From contig PXCF01000052.1 in NCBI GenBank assembly GCA_003566715.1, positions 1-34,807 on the forward strand: 34,807 nt of DNA, in the 5' to 3' direction. Under the pieces are notes generated by a model. It searched no databases, had not been told where the DNA came from, and was given only the letters and a program-made list of their open reading frames with translations. The DNA comes from Cryomorphaceae bacterium. Its GTDB lineage: Bacteria; Bacteroidota; Bacteroidia; Flavobacteriales; Schleiferiaceae. Of the stretch, positions 21,857 through 28,004 are shown piece after piece. A program made the translations under genes and the position numbers. The first letter of the stretch is position 1, and every line of letters starts with the position of its first letter.

Positions 21857-22837
21857 ATGCGACCAATCATTTTTATTTTCTGCCTTTTCATGGGTGGACT
21901 CAACGCGCAACCCATAGGCATTACAAGCCTCACCCCCATTCCAGCAAATCCTTCACCTACCGACTCCGTTTTTATTGCCATCACGGTTACCACTGGTAGT
22001 CAAGGCCACACCATCAATGTGTCTCATACACTTTCCGGGTTTACAGTTGACTTAGAAGGATGCTATTACAGTGGTATGCTGCCCGCTGTTGACACGCACC
22101 ACGACACCATTTCATTAGGTGTTTTACCCATCGGCGTCTATACGGTTAATATGAATGCTCGAGTAAGCTTAGACGCCAACGTTTGTGACCCGACTGACTC
22201 AGCACAGCTCACCACAACATTCACTGTGGGTACGCCCACCCCAGCTCCCCCGTGTTGCATCGATATTTTAGGGGTAAACATAATACCCACCATGCCCGTT
22301 GACACCACAGACATCTACGCCGAAGTTGGTGTTGAATTACCGGCACTGGGATTCTTACTCAGTGATGCCGTCAACATTAGTGGCAGTAACGTGAGCATCA
22401 ACCTGTGTTACTACGCCGACAGCATCCCCAATACCAATAGCACACTCGATACCTTTGCTCTCGGCTCGCTCGCAGCCGGACAGTACAATCTGACCGTTCA
22501 CGCCGTTCAAAGCGATGACCCCACAGCGTGTAATGGCATTGATACGGCCACCTTTACAACTTCGTTTACCGTTGATTCAGCCGATAATGGAATGCACGTC
22601 AATCAGGTGGAGCAAGCAAAATGGCGCGTATACCCCAATCCGTCCAGCGATCAATTAACAATTGTGGACGCTCCCTTTCTTTCAGATATTCAATTGATTG
22701 ACTTAAACGGGAAGGTCATTTGGCAAAGAAAATCGGATGGGAATCCGATAAACATCAACGTACAAAATTTGCCATCCGGCATCTATATTCTCAATGTGAG
22801 TGGAGTTACAAAGCGCATTCAAGTAATATCAAATTAG
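21857..22837 (+). CDS. Secreted T9SS cargo protein with two tandem beta domains
   Basis: This 326-residue protein starts with a signal peptide (about 1-17, ending LNAQ). Two tandem domains of about 110 residues follow (about 20-125 and 130-240). They share the pattern CYY-S-x-P-x-x-x-x-x-x-DT-x-x-LG-x-L-x-x-G-x-Y-x-x-x-x-A, a second Cys pair partner (NVCDPTDSAQ and TACNGIDTAT) and the ending TTSFTV/TTTFTV. The C-terminus (about 250-326) is a T9SS type A sorting domain: WRVYPNPSSDQLTI, then IDLNGKVIWQ and LPSGIYILNV. It is exported through T9SS to the surface; ligand unknown. It precedes the copper-type gene unit, but a separate promoter element lies between them. Confidence 0.8.
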   Translation: MRPIIFIFCLFMGGLNAQPIGITSLTPIPANPSPTDSVFIAITVTTGSQGHTINVSHTLSGFTVDLEGCYYSGMLPAVDTHHDTISLGVLPIGVYTVNMNARVSLDANVCDPTDSAQLTTTFTVGTPTPAPPCCIDILGVNIIPTMPVDTTDIYAEVGVELPALGFLLSDAVNISGSNVSINLCYYADSIPNTNSTLDTFALGSLAAGQYNLTVHAVQSDDPTACNGIDTATFTTSFTVDSADNGMHVNQVEQAKWRVYPNPSSDQLTIVDAPFLSDIQLIDLNGKVIWQRKSDGNPININVQNLPSGIYILNVSGVTKRIQVISN

Positions 22838-22848
22838 CCCGGCTATTG

Positions 22849-22856
22849 TATCTTTG
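22849..22856 (+). promoter_or_regulatory. -7 element immediately before the copper-type gene unit
   Basis: TATCTTTG matches TAnnTTTG and ends only 4 bases before the ATG at 22861. If used, transcription would start at or within a few bases of the start codon, giving a leaderless or near-leaderless mRNA. TTG -33 candidates exist upstream but are not well spaced. Confidence 0.4.
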
Positions 22857-22860
22857 TACT

Positions 22861-23232
22861 ATGCGCGTTTCAGCATACATATTACTCCTTTCTCTTGCGC
22901 TGCCGTTTTTGAGCAAGACTGCTGGCATTGCCAAATATCTGATTTCCTACGATGCTTACTTAGCGGCTTGTGAAAATATCGATCGACCAGAAGTGCAGTG
23001 TAACGGTACGTGTCAATGGGCAAAAGAACACGCTGAAAAGAATCATACGCCCACCCCTCCTATCATCCCTGAATCACTCAAGGTTGAAATTGCCGTTTTT
23101 CAAGAAAAACCCTTTTCTTTTTCCTTTAAATCTATTCTAAAAACCATCGACGTGCACCCCTATGCAAAGCTGGTTCTTGTTGAAGGTAACATTCTTGATG
23201 TCCCCACACCTCCCCCCAATGTTTTGATTTAA
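22861..23232 (+). CDS. Small exported protein with C-x9-C-x3-C motif (metal-associated family)
   Basis: I use the ATG at 22861 (MRVSAYILLLSLALPFL), giving 123 residues; the longer frame upstream belongs to the previous gene. The N-terminus is a signal peptide or anchor. A conserved-looking segment then places Cys37, Cys47 and Cys51 in ACENIDRPEVQCNGTCQWAKEH. Small Bacteroidota proteins with this CxNGxC-type motif occur next to metal-related genes, but I know no proven function. The rest is a basic/proline-rich tail. Immediately downstream are the MbnP-type and diheme proteins. That suggests a periplasmic copper ligand or chaperone, but this is inference from context. Confidence 0.7.
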   Translation: MRVSAYILLLSLALPFLSKTAGIAKYLISYDAYLAACENIDRPEVQCNGTCQWAKEHAEKNHTPTPPIIPESLKVEIAVFQEKPFSFSFKSILKTIDVHPYAKLVLVEGNILDVPTPPPNVLI

Positions 23233-23243
23233 AAACCGGTTTT
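23232..23243. repeat. 12-bp palindrome in the gap before the MbnP gene
   Basis: AAAACCGGTTTT is a perfect palindrome starting at the stop codon of the small Cys protein and lying 49 bases before the MbnP start. It may be a weak hairpin or an operator half-site. Confidence 0.35.
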
Positions 23244-23292
23244 GAAGATCTCTACCCACTCACATTTTAAATCAAAATAAAAAACATTTGAC

Positions 23293-24078
23293 ATGAAACG
23301 TTTAATTTCAAACTTCAAAGGGTCGTTGTTGATACTGCCCGCTATATTCATCTTTTCACTAACTGCGTGTTCTTCCGATGACGATGACAACGGCAACGGC
23401 GATACCAAAGCCTCAGTTACCATCAAATTCGATCACGGCTGGGGACCTAATCACCTTCCATTTAATTTAAATACCGCGTTAATACACCCCGCAACACAAG
23501 AGGAAATCACGTTTACGTTACTTCGTTATTATGTAACCAATATTGAGTTGCATCATGAGGATGGAACCGTATGGAAAGAAGAGGATAGTTATCGAATTGT
23601 GACTGTAGAGGGAAATAGCTCTACGCAAGAAATAACCATCCCCAACGTTCCTAACGGGGAATACAGTGCCGTGAAATTCATGATTGGCGTAGAAGAAGAG
23701 CGCAACACAAGTGGTGCGCAAGAAGGTGCATTAAGTCCTGCAGAAAATATGTTCTGGGATTGGTCTACAGGTTACATTTTCTTCAAGGCTGAAGGTATGA
23801 GTCCGGCTGCACCAAATGGTCAGTTTATGTATCATATCGGTGGATTTGAAGATCCATTTAACGCCATACGCTCCACAACCATCGCCTTTGGTACACAAAG
23901 ATTGAATGTCACCTCTGGATCAAATACATCAATTAACCTAAAGGTAAACACCGCACGCTTCTGGCACGGCGGGATAAGCCTAGCCGATGTGTTCTCTATT
24001 CACATGCCCAATGCAAACGCTGTTACCATAGCTGACAATTGGATTGGCGCTTATCGTTTCGATGAATTAAAGAATTAG
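23293..24078 (+). CDS. MbnP-family copper-binding lipoprotein
   Basis: This 261-residue lipoprotein (lipobox LTAC, Cys26) has an Asp/Asn-rich linker and then a beta-rich MbnP domain. Diagnostic blocks are VTIKFDHGWG, FTLLRYYVTNIELHHEDG, IPNVPNGEYSAVKFMIGV, ERNTSGAQEGALSPAENMFWDWSTGYIFFKAEG and FMYHIGGF. MbnP proteins are copper-binding partners of MauG-like MbnH enzymes, which in characterised members oxidise a tryptophan to kynurenine as part of the copper site. Tryptophans here are at 50, 94, 155, 157, 224 and 250; W155/W157 lie in the most conserved block. The gene for a diheme enzyme follows 8 bases later, the classical pairing. The family assignment is strong; which Trp is modified is not known. 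Confidence 0.9.
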   Translation: MKRLISNFKGSLLILPAIFIFSLTACSSDDDDNGNGDTKASVTIKFDHGWGPNHLPFNLNTALIHPATQEEITFTLLRYYVTNIELHHEDGTVWKEEDSYRIVTVEGNSSTQEITIPNVPNGEYSAVKFMIGVEEERNTSGAQEGALSPAENMFWDWSTGYIFFKAEGMSPAAPNGQFMYHIGGFEDPFNAIRSTTIAFGTQRLNVTSGSNTSINLKVNTARFWHGGISLADVFSIHMPNANAVTIADNWIGAYRFDELKN

Positions 24079-24086
24079 GATAAATA

Positions 24087-25118
24087 ATGATTCTGTATAG
24101 ACAGCTATCTCCGATAATCATTTTATCGGGGATGGCTTTCTTTTTGCTCAGTGGGTGTACAAAAGATGTCAAGGAGGAAAACACAAACATTCCACTACGC
24201 ATACGCCAACCCGCACACTTCCCCAAGCCGGTTTACACCTTTGATAACAACCCACCCAGACGAACGGTCTATGAGTTGGGTAAGCGGATGTTTTTCGATC
24301 CGATTTTATCCTTGGACCAGCAGGTGAGTTGTGGCACGTGTCATGCAGCCTCTGCGGCATTCGCCGACCCCAGAGGGTCTGCTGTTTCAACAGGCATCTT
24401 TGGCAGAAAGGGACTGCGCAATACACCGGCTCTAGCCAACCTCATTTGGTACCCGCACTTCAATCAAGATGGCGGCATCAACCATATAGAGGTTCAACCA
24501 GTAGCACCCATTAACGACTCACTGGAAATGGGGGTAGGCATTGCCAATGCGGTCAGCATATTACAAAACCACCCGGAATACCCCGAGTTGTTTGCACGGG
24601 CCTTTGACTCCGACAGTGTTACCGCTGCGCGTATTCTTTGGGCCTTTGCGCAGTTTATGGGCTCTTTGGTTTCCGACAATGCACCGATTGACGCCTATTA
24701 CCGCGAAAACAAGCCGCTTCCGGATAAGGCCATACGGGGCAAATCCATCTTCGACGAATACTGTGCCGGCTGCCATACCGGGGTGTTACAATCCGATTTT
24801 TCGTTTAAAAACAATGGACTAAACATGGGTTCACACGACATTGGCCGTGCAGAGATAACGGGTGAGAGTCAAGACGAAGGACGGTTTCGCGTTCCCTCAC
24901 TAAGGAATGTGGCGTACACCGCGCCTTACATGCATCACGGACAACTCAACACGTTGAAAGATGTGATCGAGGCCTATAGCTCGTCCATTGCAGACCATCC
25001 TAATCTCGACCCCGGTTTACCCGTCGGTGGCTTTGGCTTTTCTTCTCAGCAAAAAGAAGACCTCTATCAATTCTTGCTTCAGTTGTCTGATCATTCGTTT
25101 GTCAATCAGTCATTTTAG
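24087..25118 (+). CDS. MauG/MbnH-like diheme cytochrome c peroxidase-type lipoprotein
   Basis: This 343-residue protein is a predicted lipoprotein (lipobox LSGC, Cys24) with two heme-c sites, CGTCH (82-86) and CAGCH (226-230). These sit in the two-domain di-heme cytochrome c peroxidase fold: LGKRMFFDPILS near heme 1; RNTPALANLIW, IEVQPVAPINDSLEMG; GRFRVPSLRNVAYTAPYMHHGQLNTL near heme 2. In true peroxidases it would reduce H2O2. In MauG/MbnH relatives it oxidises a protein tryptophan through a high-valent heme state. Pairing with an MbnP gene 8 bases upstream favours the latter, as an MbnP-modifying enzyme. The second-heme axial ligand, which separates the two classes, needs an alignment. The barrel gene follows 16 bases later. 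Confidence 0.9.
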   Translation: MILYRQLSPIIILSGMAFFLLSGCTKDVKEENTNIPLRIRQPAHFPKPVYTFDNNPPRRTVYELGKRMFFDPILSLDQQVSCGTCHAASAAFADPRGSAVSTGIFGRKGLRNTPALANLIWYPHFNQDGGINHIEVQPVAPINDSLEMGVGIANAVSILQNHPEYPELFARAFDSDSVTAARILWAFAQFMGSLVSDNAPIDAYYRENKPLPDKAIRGKSIFDEYCAGCHTGVLQSDFSFKNNGLNMGSHDIGRAEITGESQDEGRFRVPSLRNVAYTAPYMHHGQLNTLKDVIEAYSSSIADHPNLDPGLPVGGFGFSSQQKEDLYQFLLQLSDHSFVNQSF

Positions 25119-25134
25119 AACACAAAACTTAGCA

Positions 25135-26064
25135 ATGAAAAAAATATTCATACCAACAATATTGTTGGTCATTATGCATATCAACACATTCGCATGCGAT
25201 ATGTGTGGGTGCGGCGTAGGTGGTTTTTACTTAGGAATTATGCCCAACTTCAGCGAGAACATCGTGGGCATCCGCAGTCAGCACCAACGCTTTGAGCACC
25301 CCGACACCTACCTCAATTACAACGGCAGCAGTCGGGTAAAACAAGACCTTATGTTTCGCTCCGACTTGTGGTTGCGCTATTACGCGTCCAGTCGGTTGCA
25401 AATCTTGACCTTTGTTCCCTACCAAACCCATATTCGCCAAGAAACCGAACACAGCGCACAAATTTCCGGTATTGGCGATATACGTTTTCGTGTATTGTAC
25501 ACCATCGTCAATACAGGAGACAGCATTGCTGGTAAATTCAAGCATACATTACTGGCGGGTGGTGAGGTGAAATTACCCACCGGGCCTTATCAACAACGCG
25601 ACCCTGTTCGTTTACAGATCATGCCTGAACTGTTCCAAATTGGCACCGGTGGCTACGGTTTTGCGGGAAATCTCATGTACACCATTCGCTATAAGTCGGT
25701 AGGATTCACCACCGACTTCATGTACACCACCAATACAACGAACGAACGATTGTACCGTTGGGGCGATCAAGTGCTAAGCTCAAGTCGATTGTTTTATTGG
25801 AAAAACTTTGGCCGTCAAACCCTCATGCCCTCCGTAGGCATTAGTTACGAGCATTTCAATCCGGATACGTACCAGTTTCGACCGGAGGGAGCCGTCTACG
25901 AGAAAAATGGAGGAACAACCACATGGTTGCAATTTGGACTTGACGTTTACGCCGGCAGATGGATGTTCCAATTGTTTTCCGACTTACCGGTACAGCTCAA
26001 CCTTCCCGAAGGCATGCCAGCCGGGACCTGGCGCACAGGATTTAATGTGGGACTGTTCTTTTGA
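25135..26064 (+). CDS. Outer-membrane beta-barrel with N-terminal CxxCxC motif
   Basis: I start at ATG 25135 (MKKIFIPTILLVIMHINTFA), giving 309 residues; the frame upstream is the end of the diheme gene. After predicted signal cleavage the mature N-terminus is CDMCGCGVGGFYLG, with Cys21, Cys24 and Cys26 forming a possible soft-metal site. The remaining ~280 residues alternate as in an outer-membrane barrel (TDFMYTTNTTNERLYRWGD and similar amphipathic strands) and end with a terminal Phe in WRTGFNVGLFF, a typical barrel C-terminus. It resembles the Bacteroidota transporter-type OMP family. Being last in the MbnP/diheme unit, it may carry metal or the complex across the outer membrane. TAFAC could also be read as a lipobox. 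Confidence 0.72.
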   Translation: MKKIFIPTILLVIMHINTFACDMCGCGVGGFYLGIMPNFSENIVGIRSQHQRFEHPDTYLNYNGSSRVKQDLMFRSDLWLRYYASSRLQILTFVPYQTHIRQETEHSAQISGIGDIRFRVLYTIVNTGDSIAGKFKHTLLAGGEVKLPTGPYQQRDPVRLQIMPELFQIGTGGYGFAGNLMYTIRYKSVGFTTDFMYTTNTTNERLYRWGDQVLSSSRLFYWKNFGRQTLMPSVGISYEHFNPDTYQFRPEGAVYEKNGGTTTWLQFGLDVYAGRWMFQLFSDLPVQLNLPEGMPAGTWRTGFNVGLFF

Positions 26065-26102: not shown

Positions 26103-28004
26103 ATGCCCTTTTCGCTTTTTAGAAAAAAATCATTCTTTCTTTTTCTGTTTTTTGCTTCCACTACTCTTTTGCGTGGACAGTCGGAAGCGCTTCTCGACAT
26201 CGACGTCAATGAAGGGGTCATTCGTGTGCAGCTGACCAAAGAAGTAAAGACCTTTTCACAAATTGAATTTGAGTTAATAGGCGTCAGTGAGATCACTACC
26301 CATCGGCGTCAACTTAGAAAACGAGAAAATGTGACTCTTAGCAAATCGGGTGATAAATGGAAGTTTGATACCGGTCAGTGGAAAAACCAGCCGCATCAGG
26401 CATTGGACTTACAATACGAAATAAGGCTCCAAGCCTTAGGCGGTTTAGCGCGAAGAAACGGAGATTTGGTGCTAAATCCCGTAAAGTGTAAAACTTGCTC
26501 GTCACTCAATCCGTTTGAAGTGAGACAGTTCACATGGGCTAAGGTGTTGCCCTCATCTGTTAGCCGTCTCAACCTAAGTATAAGAATCCCTCAAAATTTC
26601 ACGTGGTCCAGCAGTAACGAAGCTGTTTTTATCGTTGAAGATGACGCGCTACGCACCATCAATTTTGGTGAAGTCAATTTACGTGACTTTTACTTTGTCA
26701 TGGAGAGCGACGTGCTTTTAGCCGTTGGGGATCAAAAAATCGAGGAACAAGAATCCGTTACCCAAGAGCAAAAAAAAGAGTCACTTGACGAAAGAGATTT
26801 GATTAGCACGACGGAAAAGCCGCAAAACAAGGAGGATGATAAAGACATAATCGATTCAACCGAGAAAGAAGAGCAAGCGAAACGACCCTTAAGACGACTC
26901 GTAGAAGTCAACCTCCGCCCCCTTCCGATGATGACTAGACCGCTAGACAAACGCCTCAACCCTTTGCTATCGCTGCCATTTGACGTTGAACCGGTAAAAT
27001 TGCCTACCATTAGCGAAAGTACACCAATGGAACTGGTGTTTCAACAACGCTTTGAACCGGCCTACTTAGGACTGTTCCACGTGGTTGACAAAGAACTTTT
27101 CAGTCGCATCGAAATGCTAAAAGATGCCGGGGATGAAGGAAAACTTTGGGAGCTTGCACTTCAGCAGTTTCGCATGGAATACGGCGATGATGAAGCGTTG
27201 GTTCGTACACTTTACAACTACGAAAGGGGGGGGTATCAGCAACCGGAACCCGGTAAAATTGTCTTTACAAATGAATTCTCCGCTGCTCCTACAACCATTC
27301 ATGTCAGGAGAAACCGAACCAAGGACTGCTTAGAAATATCCCATACCGGCAACACGAAAACAGAAATCATTCTGAGTTATCCAAATGGCGACACCACAGT
27401 AACCGTTGATAAAAATGAAACACGTTGTTTGTCAAAACCCACGCCGGAATTCTATTTTCCCGCCAAAATAAATGGCCCTATAGCGTTTACTTTGAGCGAC
27501 GGACAAGCTTGGCAACTATACCGAGAGCGCGAGGATGCCTTATCGCGTTATTGGGCGTTTCGATCGCTGCTCAATTCGGCATCACCACACACCAGAGCCA
27601 CAGCGGCATCTTTTGGCTTAGACGATCCGCTTCAGACCATCAGAGAAATGGCACTTAAGGCAGCGGAAACCATCCCGGCCTTTGCCGCATCGCGATTGGA
27701 AAACGGTTTGCTTCAATTAATGCAAGAAGGGAGCTATTTTGAAGCAAGCAAGGCAGCAAAAGTGCTGCGGGAGAAACTGGGCAAAGAGAACATTGAGTTA
27801 CCTGTTTACCCTTGTGATACGACTACCAACTGGAATCAGTCTGCAGAAAACGTCATCTGCCAATGGATTCTTCGTTTTCCCACAGAAAAAGTTACCGTTA
27901 TCGAAGAAATCAATGCCAAAATTAAAGTTCTTAAATCAGAAAACGAAAGCGAAGATATTGAGGCGCTGCAAACATTGGCATTAATTTTTGCCGGACTGAT
28001 GTAA
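26103..28004 (+). CDS. Large secreted protein of unknown function
   Basis: This 633-residue protein has a signal peptide (about 1-25, FFLFLFFASTTLLRGQ). An N-terminal beta-sandwich-like region (about 27-200) includes a CKTC pair (Cys129, Cys132) and is followed by a highly charged low-complexity linker (about 212-262, Lys/Glu/Asp/Gln-rich). A middle region (about 300-470) shows WELALQQFRMEYGDDEALVRTLYNYERGG, and a helical C-terminal region (about 490-633) looks like HEAT-type repeats (ASFGLDDPLQTIREMALKAAETIP). The layout recalls the N-domain and helical C-domain of M1-type aminopeptidases, but no HExxH zinc motif is seen, so I do not call it a peptidase. No family recognised. Confidence 0.55.
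   Translation: MPFSLFRKKSFFLFLFFASTTLLRGQSEALLDIDVNEGVIRVQLTKEVKTFSQIEFELIGVSEITTHRRQLRKRENVTLSKSGDKWKFDTGQWKNQPHQALDLQYEIRLQALGGLARRNGDLVLNPVKCKTCSSLNPFEVRQFTWAKVLPSSVSRLNLSIRIPQNFTWSSSNEAVFIVEDDALRTINFGEVNLRDFYFVMESDVLLAVGDQKIEEQESVTQEQKKESLDERDLISTTEKPQNKEDDKDIIDSTEKEEQAKRPLRRLVEVNLRPLPMMTRPLDKRLNPLLSLPFDVEPVKLPTISESTPMELVFQQRFEPAYLGLFHVVDKELFSRIEMLKDAGDEGKLWELALQQFRMEYGDDEALVRTLYNYERGGYQQPEPGKIVFTNEFSAAPTTIHVRRNRTKDCLEISHTGNTKTEIILSYPNGDTTVTVDKNETRCLSKPTPEFYFPAKINGPIAFTLSDGQAWQLYREREDALSRYWAFRSLLNSASPHTRATAASFGLDDPLQTIREMALKAAETIPAFAASRLENGLLQLMQEGSYFEASKAAKVLREKLGKENIELPVYPCDTTTNWNQSAENVICQWILRFPTEKVTVIEEINAKIKVLKSENESEDIEALQTLALIFAGLM

Follow-up and report, generated by a model that had tools for sequence, protein, structure and literature searches.

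An MbnP/MbnH and barrel unit of Bacteroidota and its candidate copper leader peptide

The small protein CruR, which combines a CXXC motif with a RAPP sequence, heads operons for TonB-dependent transporters (TBDT), PepSY_TM proteins, SCO proteins and MbnPH-like proteins (PMC9426467, PMC12914433). Its synthesis pauses at RAPP when copper is absent, and copper bound at the CXXC motif ends the pause, after which Rho stops transcription (PMC9426467); in vitro work has demonstrated the arrest (PMC12992588). Through a Cys motif and a proline-rich end, CutF controls a stem-loop that covers the start of the following gene (PMC9973294, PMC8456105). In Bacteroidota, CutF-like proteins have been counted in bulk by rule (PMC9973294), the phylum contributing about 40% of those listed when normalised by proteome number, and a survey from 2025 described RAPP/RGPP leaders of copper genes in many lineages, with Bacteroidota as the exception without them (PMC12992588). 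Here we analysed a four-gene unit (genes 1 to 4, all on the plus strand) in a stretch of 34,807 nucleotides from a Cryomorphaceae bacterium (contig PXCF01000052.1; the whole stretch is called the window below). An earlier reading of this DNA, the original prediction, had taken the unit for an MbnP/MbnH-type copper system with two extra cysteine-containing exported partners, gene 1 and a barrel. Our analysis suggested that the unit is probably a copper-acquisition operon, in which gene 1 encodes a leader peptide with a regulatory role and the working parts come from genes 2 to 4.

The four-gene unit and the family of its first gene

The four adjacent genes occupy positions 22861-26064 and are separated by 60, 8 and 16 nucleotides, exactly as had been proposed. 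Gene 1 (22861-23232) is a small open reading frame (ORF) of 123 residues with a hydrophobic N-terminus and the motif C-x9-C-x3-C of the original prediction (C37, C47 and C51), or in its fuller form C-x9-C-x-G-x-C. Three further features had escaped that reading: a Pro-Pro close to the C-terminus of gene 1, a 15-bp stem over its stop codon and a TATCTTTG box in front of it. The C-terminal region reads TPPPN, with the PPP of residues 117-119 four residues before the stop, and the corresponding codons CCT CCC CCC (23209-23217) are the proposed pause site.

An alignment of 19 family members showed that the three Cys, one Asn, one Gly and the terminal Pro-Pro are invariant, and nothing else. A Pro-Pro within the last 15 residues was present in all 105 distinct members, compared with 15 of the 1245 other ORFs of the same loci, and this count stayed the same with a search profile built from the N-terminal part only, which served as a check for circularity. 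The first two Cys are exactly nine residues apart in 104 of the 105 members, and the last Cys and the Pro-Pro are 63-76 residues apart (median 67). When named genomes were added and the set was then reduced to <60% identity, the Pro-Pro was kept in 133/133 members, within the last 18 residues, at a median distance of 68 residues from the last Cys (5-95%, 65-73). All members have a hydrophobic N-terminal segment, as judged from hydropathy only, and they end in xHPP, xRPP or xPPP, RAPP being absent from the 40 commonest C-terminal motifs listed for the family. The family was found in 148 of 392 Bacteroidota genomes (about 38%) and in 71 of 179 genera.

Searches of Pfam with gene 1 returned no family at E<=1, PF11162 (DUF2946) included, and NCBIfam likewise gave no match; the DUF2946 profile itself matched in 5 of 198 Bacteroidota genomes and nowhere in the host genome. 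Membership of gene 1 in DUF2946, the CruR family, was ruled out by the failure of the PF11162 profile to match and by the lack of a C-terminal RAPP. In length, C-terminus and gene spacing, gene 1 does fall within the rule set for CutF-like proteins (PMC9973294), being 123 residues long (<150), with a Pro-Pro in the last 15 residues and a same-strand gene 60 nucleotides downstream (<1000).

The conserved co-occurrence of the four families had been named beforehand as a test of the original prediction, and its outcome favours the unit. Among the 80 MbnP loci nearest to that of the window, all from named genomes, 30 had all four families in order and 53 had gene 1. The MbnP and diheme genes were coupled in nearly all of them, and none of those whose upstream DNA could be read had the barrel without the small gene. 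The order of small gene, mbnP, diheme gene and barrel recurs across many genera with unrelated flanks, and the four-gene arrangement is far beyond chance. Starting from the barrel, 34 of its 37 strongest matches in the phylum had the small gene on the same strand at most 4 kb upstream.

The genes directly 3ʹ of the leader vary: MbnP with the diheme gene (with or without the barrel), the barrel alone, YtkA followed by a TonB receptor, or a TonB receptor. With the MbnP and barrel cases excluded, 29 of 39 first downstream genes encoded a TonB receptor; PepSY_TM was the second downstream gene in 7 of 24 leader loci, and SCO1/SenC stood behind the leader in four. These neighbours are the same set as reported for CruR, namely TBDT, PepSY_TM, SCO and MbnPH-like genes, and the copper context of the original prediction was supported.

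The NosZ layout was observed in locus L111, where the leader is followed by YtkA, a TonB receptor, cytochrome c and the copper enzyme NosZ, a Sec-dependent N2O reductase identified by profile; L112 and L113 have the same layout, judged from gene order alone. In some genomes (L135, L136, L138 and L162) two members of the leader family are found a short distance apart. One precedes a small cluster that, judging by Pfam counts, probably includes SCO1 and superoxide dismutase genes, and the other precedes MbnP-MbnH-barrel; in an alternative arrangement, both stand in tandem before a TonB receptor. We also noticed proteins of the HYC_CC_PP family (NF047658), or of the same pattern, upstream of paralogous MbnP-MauG(-MauG) units (L058, L059, L064, L065; G000:C75:19320-19535), and these small Cys proteins may be a second leader family. 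Locus L211 (CP034120.1), from a record titled Glaciecola amylolytica (Gammaproteobacteria), carries leader, MbnP and MbnH closely like the Bacteroidota unit, possibly as a result of horizontal transfer.

Promoter placement, stop/start pairing and the proposed leader mechanism

The TATCTTTG box of the window (22849-22856, plus strand), four nucleotides 5ʹ of the leader start codon, matches the Bacteroidota -7 promoter element TAnnTTTG. This element was found at most 120 nucleotides upstream of 69% of 104 leader family members, mostly no more than 25 nucleotides away, compared with 8.5% in shuffles, and in 1% of the gaps 3ʹ of leaders. Since it precedes the leader and is absent from the gap that follows, the genes behind the leader probably depend on transcription through it. 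The median gap from leader to next gene is 89 nucleotides, that from mbnP to mbnH 4.5 and that from mbnH to the barrel 2.

In the window, the 15-bp stem is formed by positions 23220-23234, which begin two nucleotides past the Pro codons and span the leader stop codon (23230-23232), and positions 23265-23279, which end 13 nucleotides 5ʹ of the mbnP start codon. The arms contain a perfect 13-nucleotide inverted repeat; the helix had p=0.01 against shuffles, and the duplex of stop region and start region also had p=0.01. Relatives have stems of differing sequence at the equivalent position. Complementarity of the stop region with the next start at p<=0.05 was found in 35% of 91 non-redundant loci, compared with 5.6% of 374 control junctions (Fisher 2e-12), a test limited by errors in the calling of start codons and by non-independence within genera. 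An intrinsic terminator in the gap between leader and mbnP was ruled out, as the sequence after the 3ʹ arm is A-rich with no T-run and the terminator scan lists none there.

Because its family heads varied copper operons, keeps the Cys motif and the stop-proximal Pro-Pro at a fixed spacing and shows stop/start pairing, gene 1 follows the pattern of a CutF/CruR-type leader, and translational control of copper acquisition by the leader is likely. The gene families, the operon conservation, the two leader motifs with their spacing, the promoter placement and the stop/start pairing are supported by the sequences and their statistics.

We propose that transcription would start just 5ʹ of the leader ORF and that the leader product would be exported during its synthesis. 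A ribosome pausing at the Pro-Pro near the leader stop codon would cover part of the 5ʹ arm of the stem, which otherwise would block the mbnP start; because the paused ribosome would keep this arm open, mbnP and the later genes could be translated. During the pause the C-x9-C-x-G-x-C motif would be separated from the catalytic centre by about 67 residues, a length that roughly spans the exit tunnel and the SecY channel together; the motif would have left the tunnel and sit near the far side of SecY, where it could sample copper. Copper on the Cys motif would then pull the chain and end the pause, the stem would re-form and the operon would be turned down. Pausing, copper binding by the leader and repression by copper are carried over from related systems, as are the conversion of Trp to kynurenine and the barrel's part in copper handling, both proposed below.

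Several points weigh against this scheme. Given the start calls used, two thirds of the leader loci had no significant stop/start pairing, and the independent replication subset was weaker, with pairing in 23% of 30 loci and a mean z of -0.6. Three loci with MbnPH units (L043, L047 and L050) have little or no gap 3ʹ of the leader. The whole-region RNA fold of the leader-mbnP gap in the window was ordinary (z -0.55), and the RNA support therefore comes from the specific stop/start pairing and not from overall fold stability. The Met and His ligands suggested below for MbnP were assigned from conservation and fold, not from residue-level superposition. Pausing at a plain Pro-Pro, present here without RAPP, may be relieved by EF-P. 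In addition, the proline-rich end of CutF gave no strong stalling in a LepB fusion (PMC9973294).

The response could also have the opposite sign, as in CutF, in which case copper would strengthen the pause and turn the operon on, and the unit would serve copper defence or storage. Copper enhances a stalling-like process in CutF (PMC9973294), and the stem-over-start layout of the window is nearer to cutF-cutO than to the long cruR gap. However, the neighbours of the leader are of the acquisition type (TonB receptors, PepSY_TM, SCO1), and both the surface copper protein CorA with its partner CorB (PMC3912023) and the cruR operon (PMC9426467) are copper-repressed. It is from these neighbours and from CorA/CorB that we infer the copper-off sign, and an operon turned on by copper seems doubtful to us.

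Gene 1 could instead be a true periplasmic copper-binding partner or chaperone that hands copper to MbnP, with the Pro-Pro tail as a docking motif. The export-type hydrophobic N-terminus and the three invariant Cys would suit such a role, in which CutF too was first cast (PMC8456105). However, little is conserved in gene 1 besides the Cys motif and the Pro-Pro, it precedes many unrelated products, as expected of a leader, and a chaperone would leave the stop/start pairing and the promoter placement unexplained, so that we consider this role unlikely. Of the two extra cysteine partners of the original prediction, the CxxC barrel stood, while gene 1 is probably not an exported partner that binds copper, given the varied operons that it heads, the fixed spacing of Cys and Pro-Pro and the RNA pairing.

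A wider proposal can be made, which we hold with as much doubt as confidence: Bacteroidota may have a large nascent-chain copper-sensor family of their own, negative with the DUF2946 profile and with a Pro-Pro other than RAPP, which would reach copper on the far side of the membrane by a fixed tether of about 67 residues. By opening the stop/start stem, its members would control copper uptake receptors, SCO1, NosZ and MbnPH units, among them an MbnPH unit with its own CxxC outer-membrane barrel.

MbnP, the diheme enzyme and the barrel

The 261-residue lipoprotein encoded by gene 2 (23293-24078) matched PF20243 with E=8e-52 (176 bits, against a curated cut-off of 27) and fell below the equivalog cut-off of NCBIfam TIGR04052 (48.5 vs 140 bits). 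Sequence searches of the PDB, with the single sequence or a profile, gave nothing credible. The fold search, made with an AlphaFold2 model built from 17 sequences of its own family (mean predicted local distance difference test score, pLDDT, 79), found Methylosinus trichosporium MbnP (7L6G) as the best match, with Z 16.6 and a root-mean-square deviation of 2.9 Å over 208 residues at 15% identity; the second-best match had Z 6.2. In M. trichosporium MbnP the first Trp of WxW is reportedly converted to kynurenine, and a His and a Met take part in binding the copper. Among the relatives of the window protein, Met153 and Trp155 were each kept in 112/114 and His181 in 110/114, and Trp157 was also nearly invariant. 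Conservation and the model thus point to Met153, Trp155 (the first Trp of WxW) and His181 as the predicted copper/kynurenine site.

Gene 3 (24087-25118) encodes a diheme lipoprotein of 343 residues, which matched CCP_MauG (E=2.5e-42) and the MbnH family TIGR04039 (E=1e-55), the latter below its equivalog cut-off (189 vs 363 bits). Of 133 sequences, 132-133 keep the Cys and His of both CxxCH motifs (residues 82-86 and 226-230), and 128 keep Tyr297. This Tyr occupies the place where peroxidases carry a Met haem ligand, and it aligned with the Tyr of the di-heme enzyme MbnH (6E1C). Because both CxxCH sites are kept and Tyr297 stands where peroxidases have Met, the protein is a MauG/MbnH-type enzyme by sequence. 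Judged by profiles and models, genes 2 and 3 encode distant members of the MbnP and MbnH families, not equivalogs, and the identities originally given to both were upheld. An ordinary peroxidase for peroxide defence, next to an MbnP-like protein with no kynurenine copper site, might be read from the cytochrome c peroxidases that are the best single-sequence PDB matches of the diheme protein and from the scores of both proteins under the equivalog cut-offs, but it is very improbable, since the family profile finds MbnH (6E1C) as its best PDB match, Tyr297 replaces the peroxidase Met, MbnP hardly varies at its Met, WxW and His, and mbnP is coupled to the diheme gene at nearly every locus.

The outer-membrane beta-barrel of gene 4 (25135-26064, 309 residues) has the CDMCGCG sequence of the original prediction after a signal-like segment, with CDMCGC at the mature N-terminus. 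A CDxC near the mature N-terminus was found in 69 of 74 relatives, mostly as CDxCGC, and one of the five exceptions has CEICGC; the CxxC barrel is a regular partner of the unit. Nothing credible was found for it in the PDB by sequence, and no Pfam or NCBIfam family matched. Its structure model (pLDDT 81) matched FapF (5O67, E=1.7e-11) and a COG4313 channel (4RL8, template modelling score 0.78 by target length), which denotes a shared fold, not family membership. To our knowledge, neither an N-terminal CDxCGC nor a copper-operon context is a known feature of FapF/COG4313 channels.

In the proposed acquisition operon, the diheme enzyme would oxidise the first WxW Trp of the MbnP lipoprotein to kynurenine, which would complete a Cu(I) site together with Met153 and His181. 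At the outer membrane, the barrel and its N-terminal CxxC could pass or dock copper.

The host assembly (2.46 Mb, 153 contigs, 99.6% complete) has its nearest named relatives in Cryomorphaceae/Schleiferiaceae, e.g. Schleiferia and Thermaurantimonas. The original view of an MbnP/MbnH unit independent of methanobactin was supported, and a whole-genome search for an MbnB-type gene gave no TIGR04159 or PF05114 match; MbnC was not searched for. Three genes of the host have an MbnP domain, and neither of the two other paralogues (G000:C76:18240-18797 and G000:C1:18229-18759; L053 and L054) is headed by the leader family. The unit is flanked on its 5ʹ side by a protein sorted by the type IX secretion system (21857-22837) and on its 3ʹ side by a 633-residue protein of unknown family (26103-28004), and both adjoin the unit only within the same genus.

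Comparison with described systems

The barrel resembles FapF and the COG4313 channels (5O67, 4RL8) in its predicted fold. The MbnP/MbnH pair of M. trichosporium (7L6G, 6E1C) shares with the window the MbnP fold, the WxW with conserved Met and His, and a MauG-type diheme partner with Tyr; the window unit differs by the additional barrel and leader, by the absence of detected methanobactin genes and by an identity of only 15% in the structural alignment. A further likeness is to the methanotroph systems CorA/CorB and MopE/SACCP, in which a surface Cu(I) protein with a Trp-derived kynurenine has a diheme partner gene next to it, whereas the CorA site has two His and the CorA sequence bears no marked similarity to MbnP (PMC3621798). 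Pairs of MbnP and MbnH that do not belong to methanobactin operons are already known (PMC3621798), and the pair is therefore not new in itself. We found no description of the MbnPH-barrel unit, of the leader family or of its stop/start stem in the literature that could be searched. With this unit, MbnP, a predicted kynurenine-copper protein, would belong to a defined machine of three parts, one of them an outer-membrane barrel.

As a leader, gene 1 is similar to CruR, the DUF2946 leader of Bordetella pertussis cruR-crtA-PepSY_TM, in being a small exported-type ORF that heads copper operons and whose Cys motif is followed by a Pro-Pro three residues before the C-terminal end. They differ in the Cys motif (C-x9-C-x-G-x-C vs CXXC), in the Pro-Pro, which lacks RA in gene 1, and in the distance from Cys to Pro-Pro, about 67 residues in the gene 1 family and about 48 in CruR; the window unit has a stem over stop and start, whereas in CruR the gap is long and termination depends on Rho. 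CutF of Rhodobacter capsulatus (cutFOG) shares the Cys motif as such, the proline-rich end, the short gap and a stem-loop shielding the next start, but its Cys motif is another one, it is followed by a multicopper oxidase instead of MbnPH-barrel or TBDT genes, and the sign predicted here is opposite. HYC_CC_PP proteins of Bacteroidota are likewise small, contain Cys and have a Pro-Pro near the C-terminus, and they precede paralogous MbnP-MauG units; their Cys pattern differs and their Pro-Pro lies further from the end, and the window leader belongs to another family. The leader offers a testable handle for finding the copper-acquisition operons of Bacteroidota, those for nitrous-oxide reductase included. 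Its family, found at the head of many copper-type outer-membrane operons in the phylum, could be the missing Bacteroidota counterpart of the RAPP/RGPP copper leaders.

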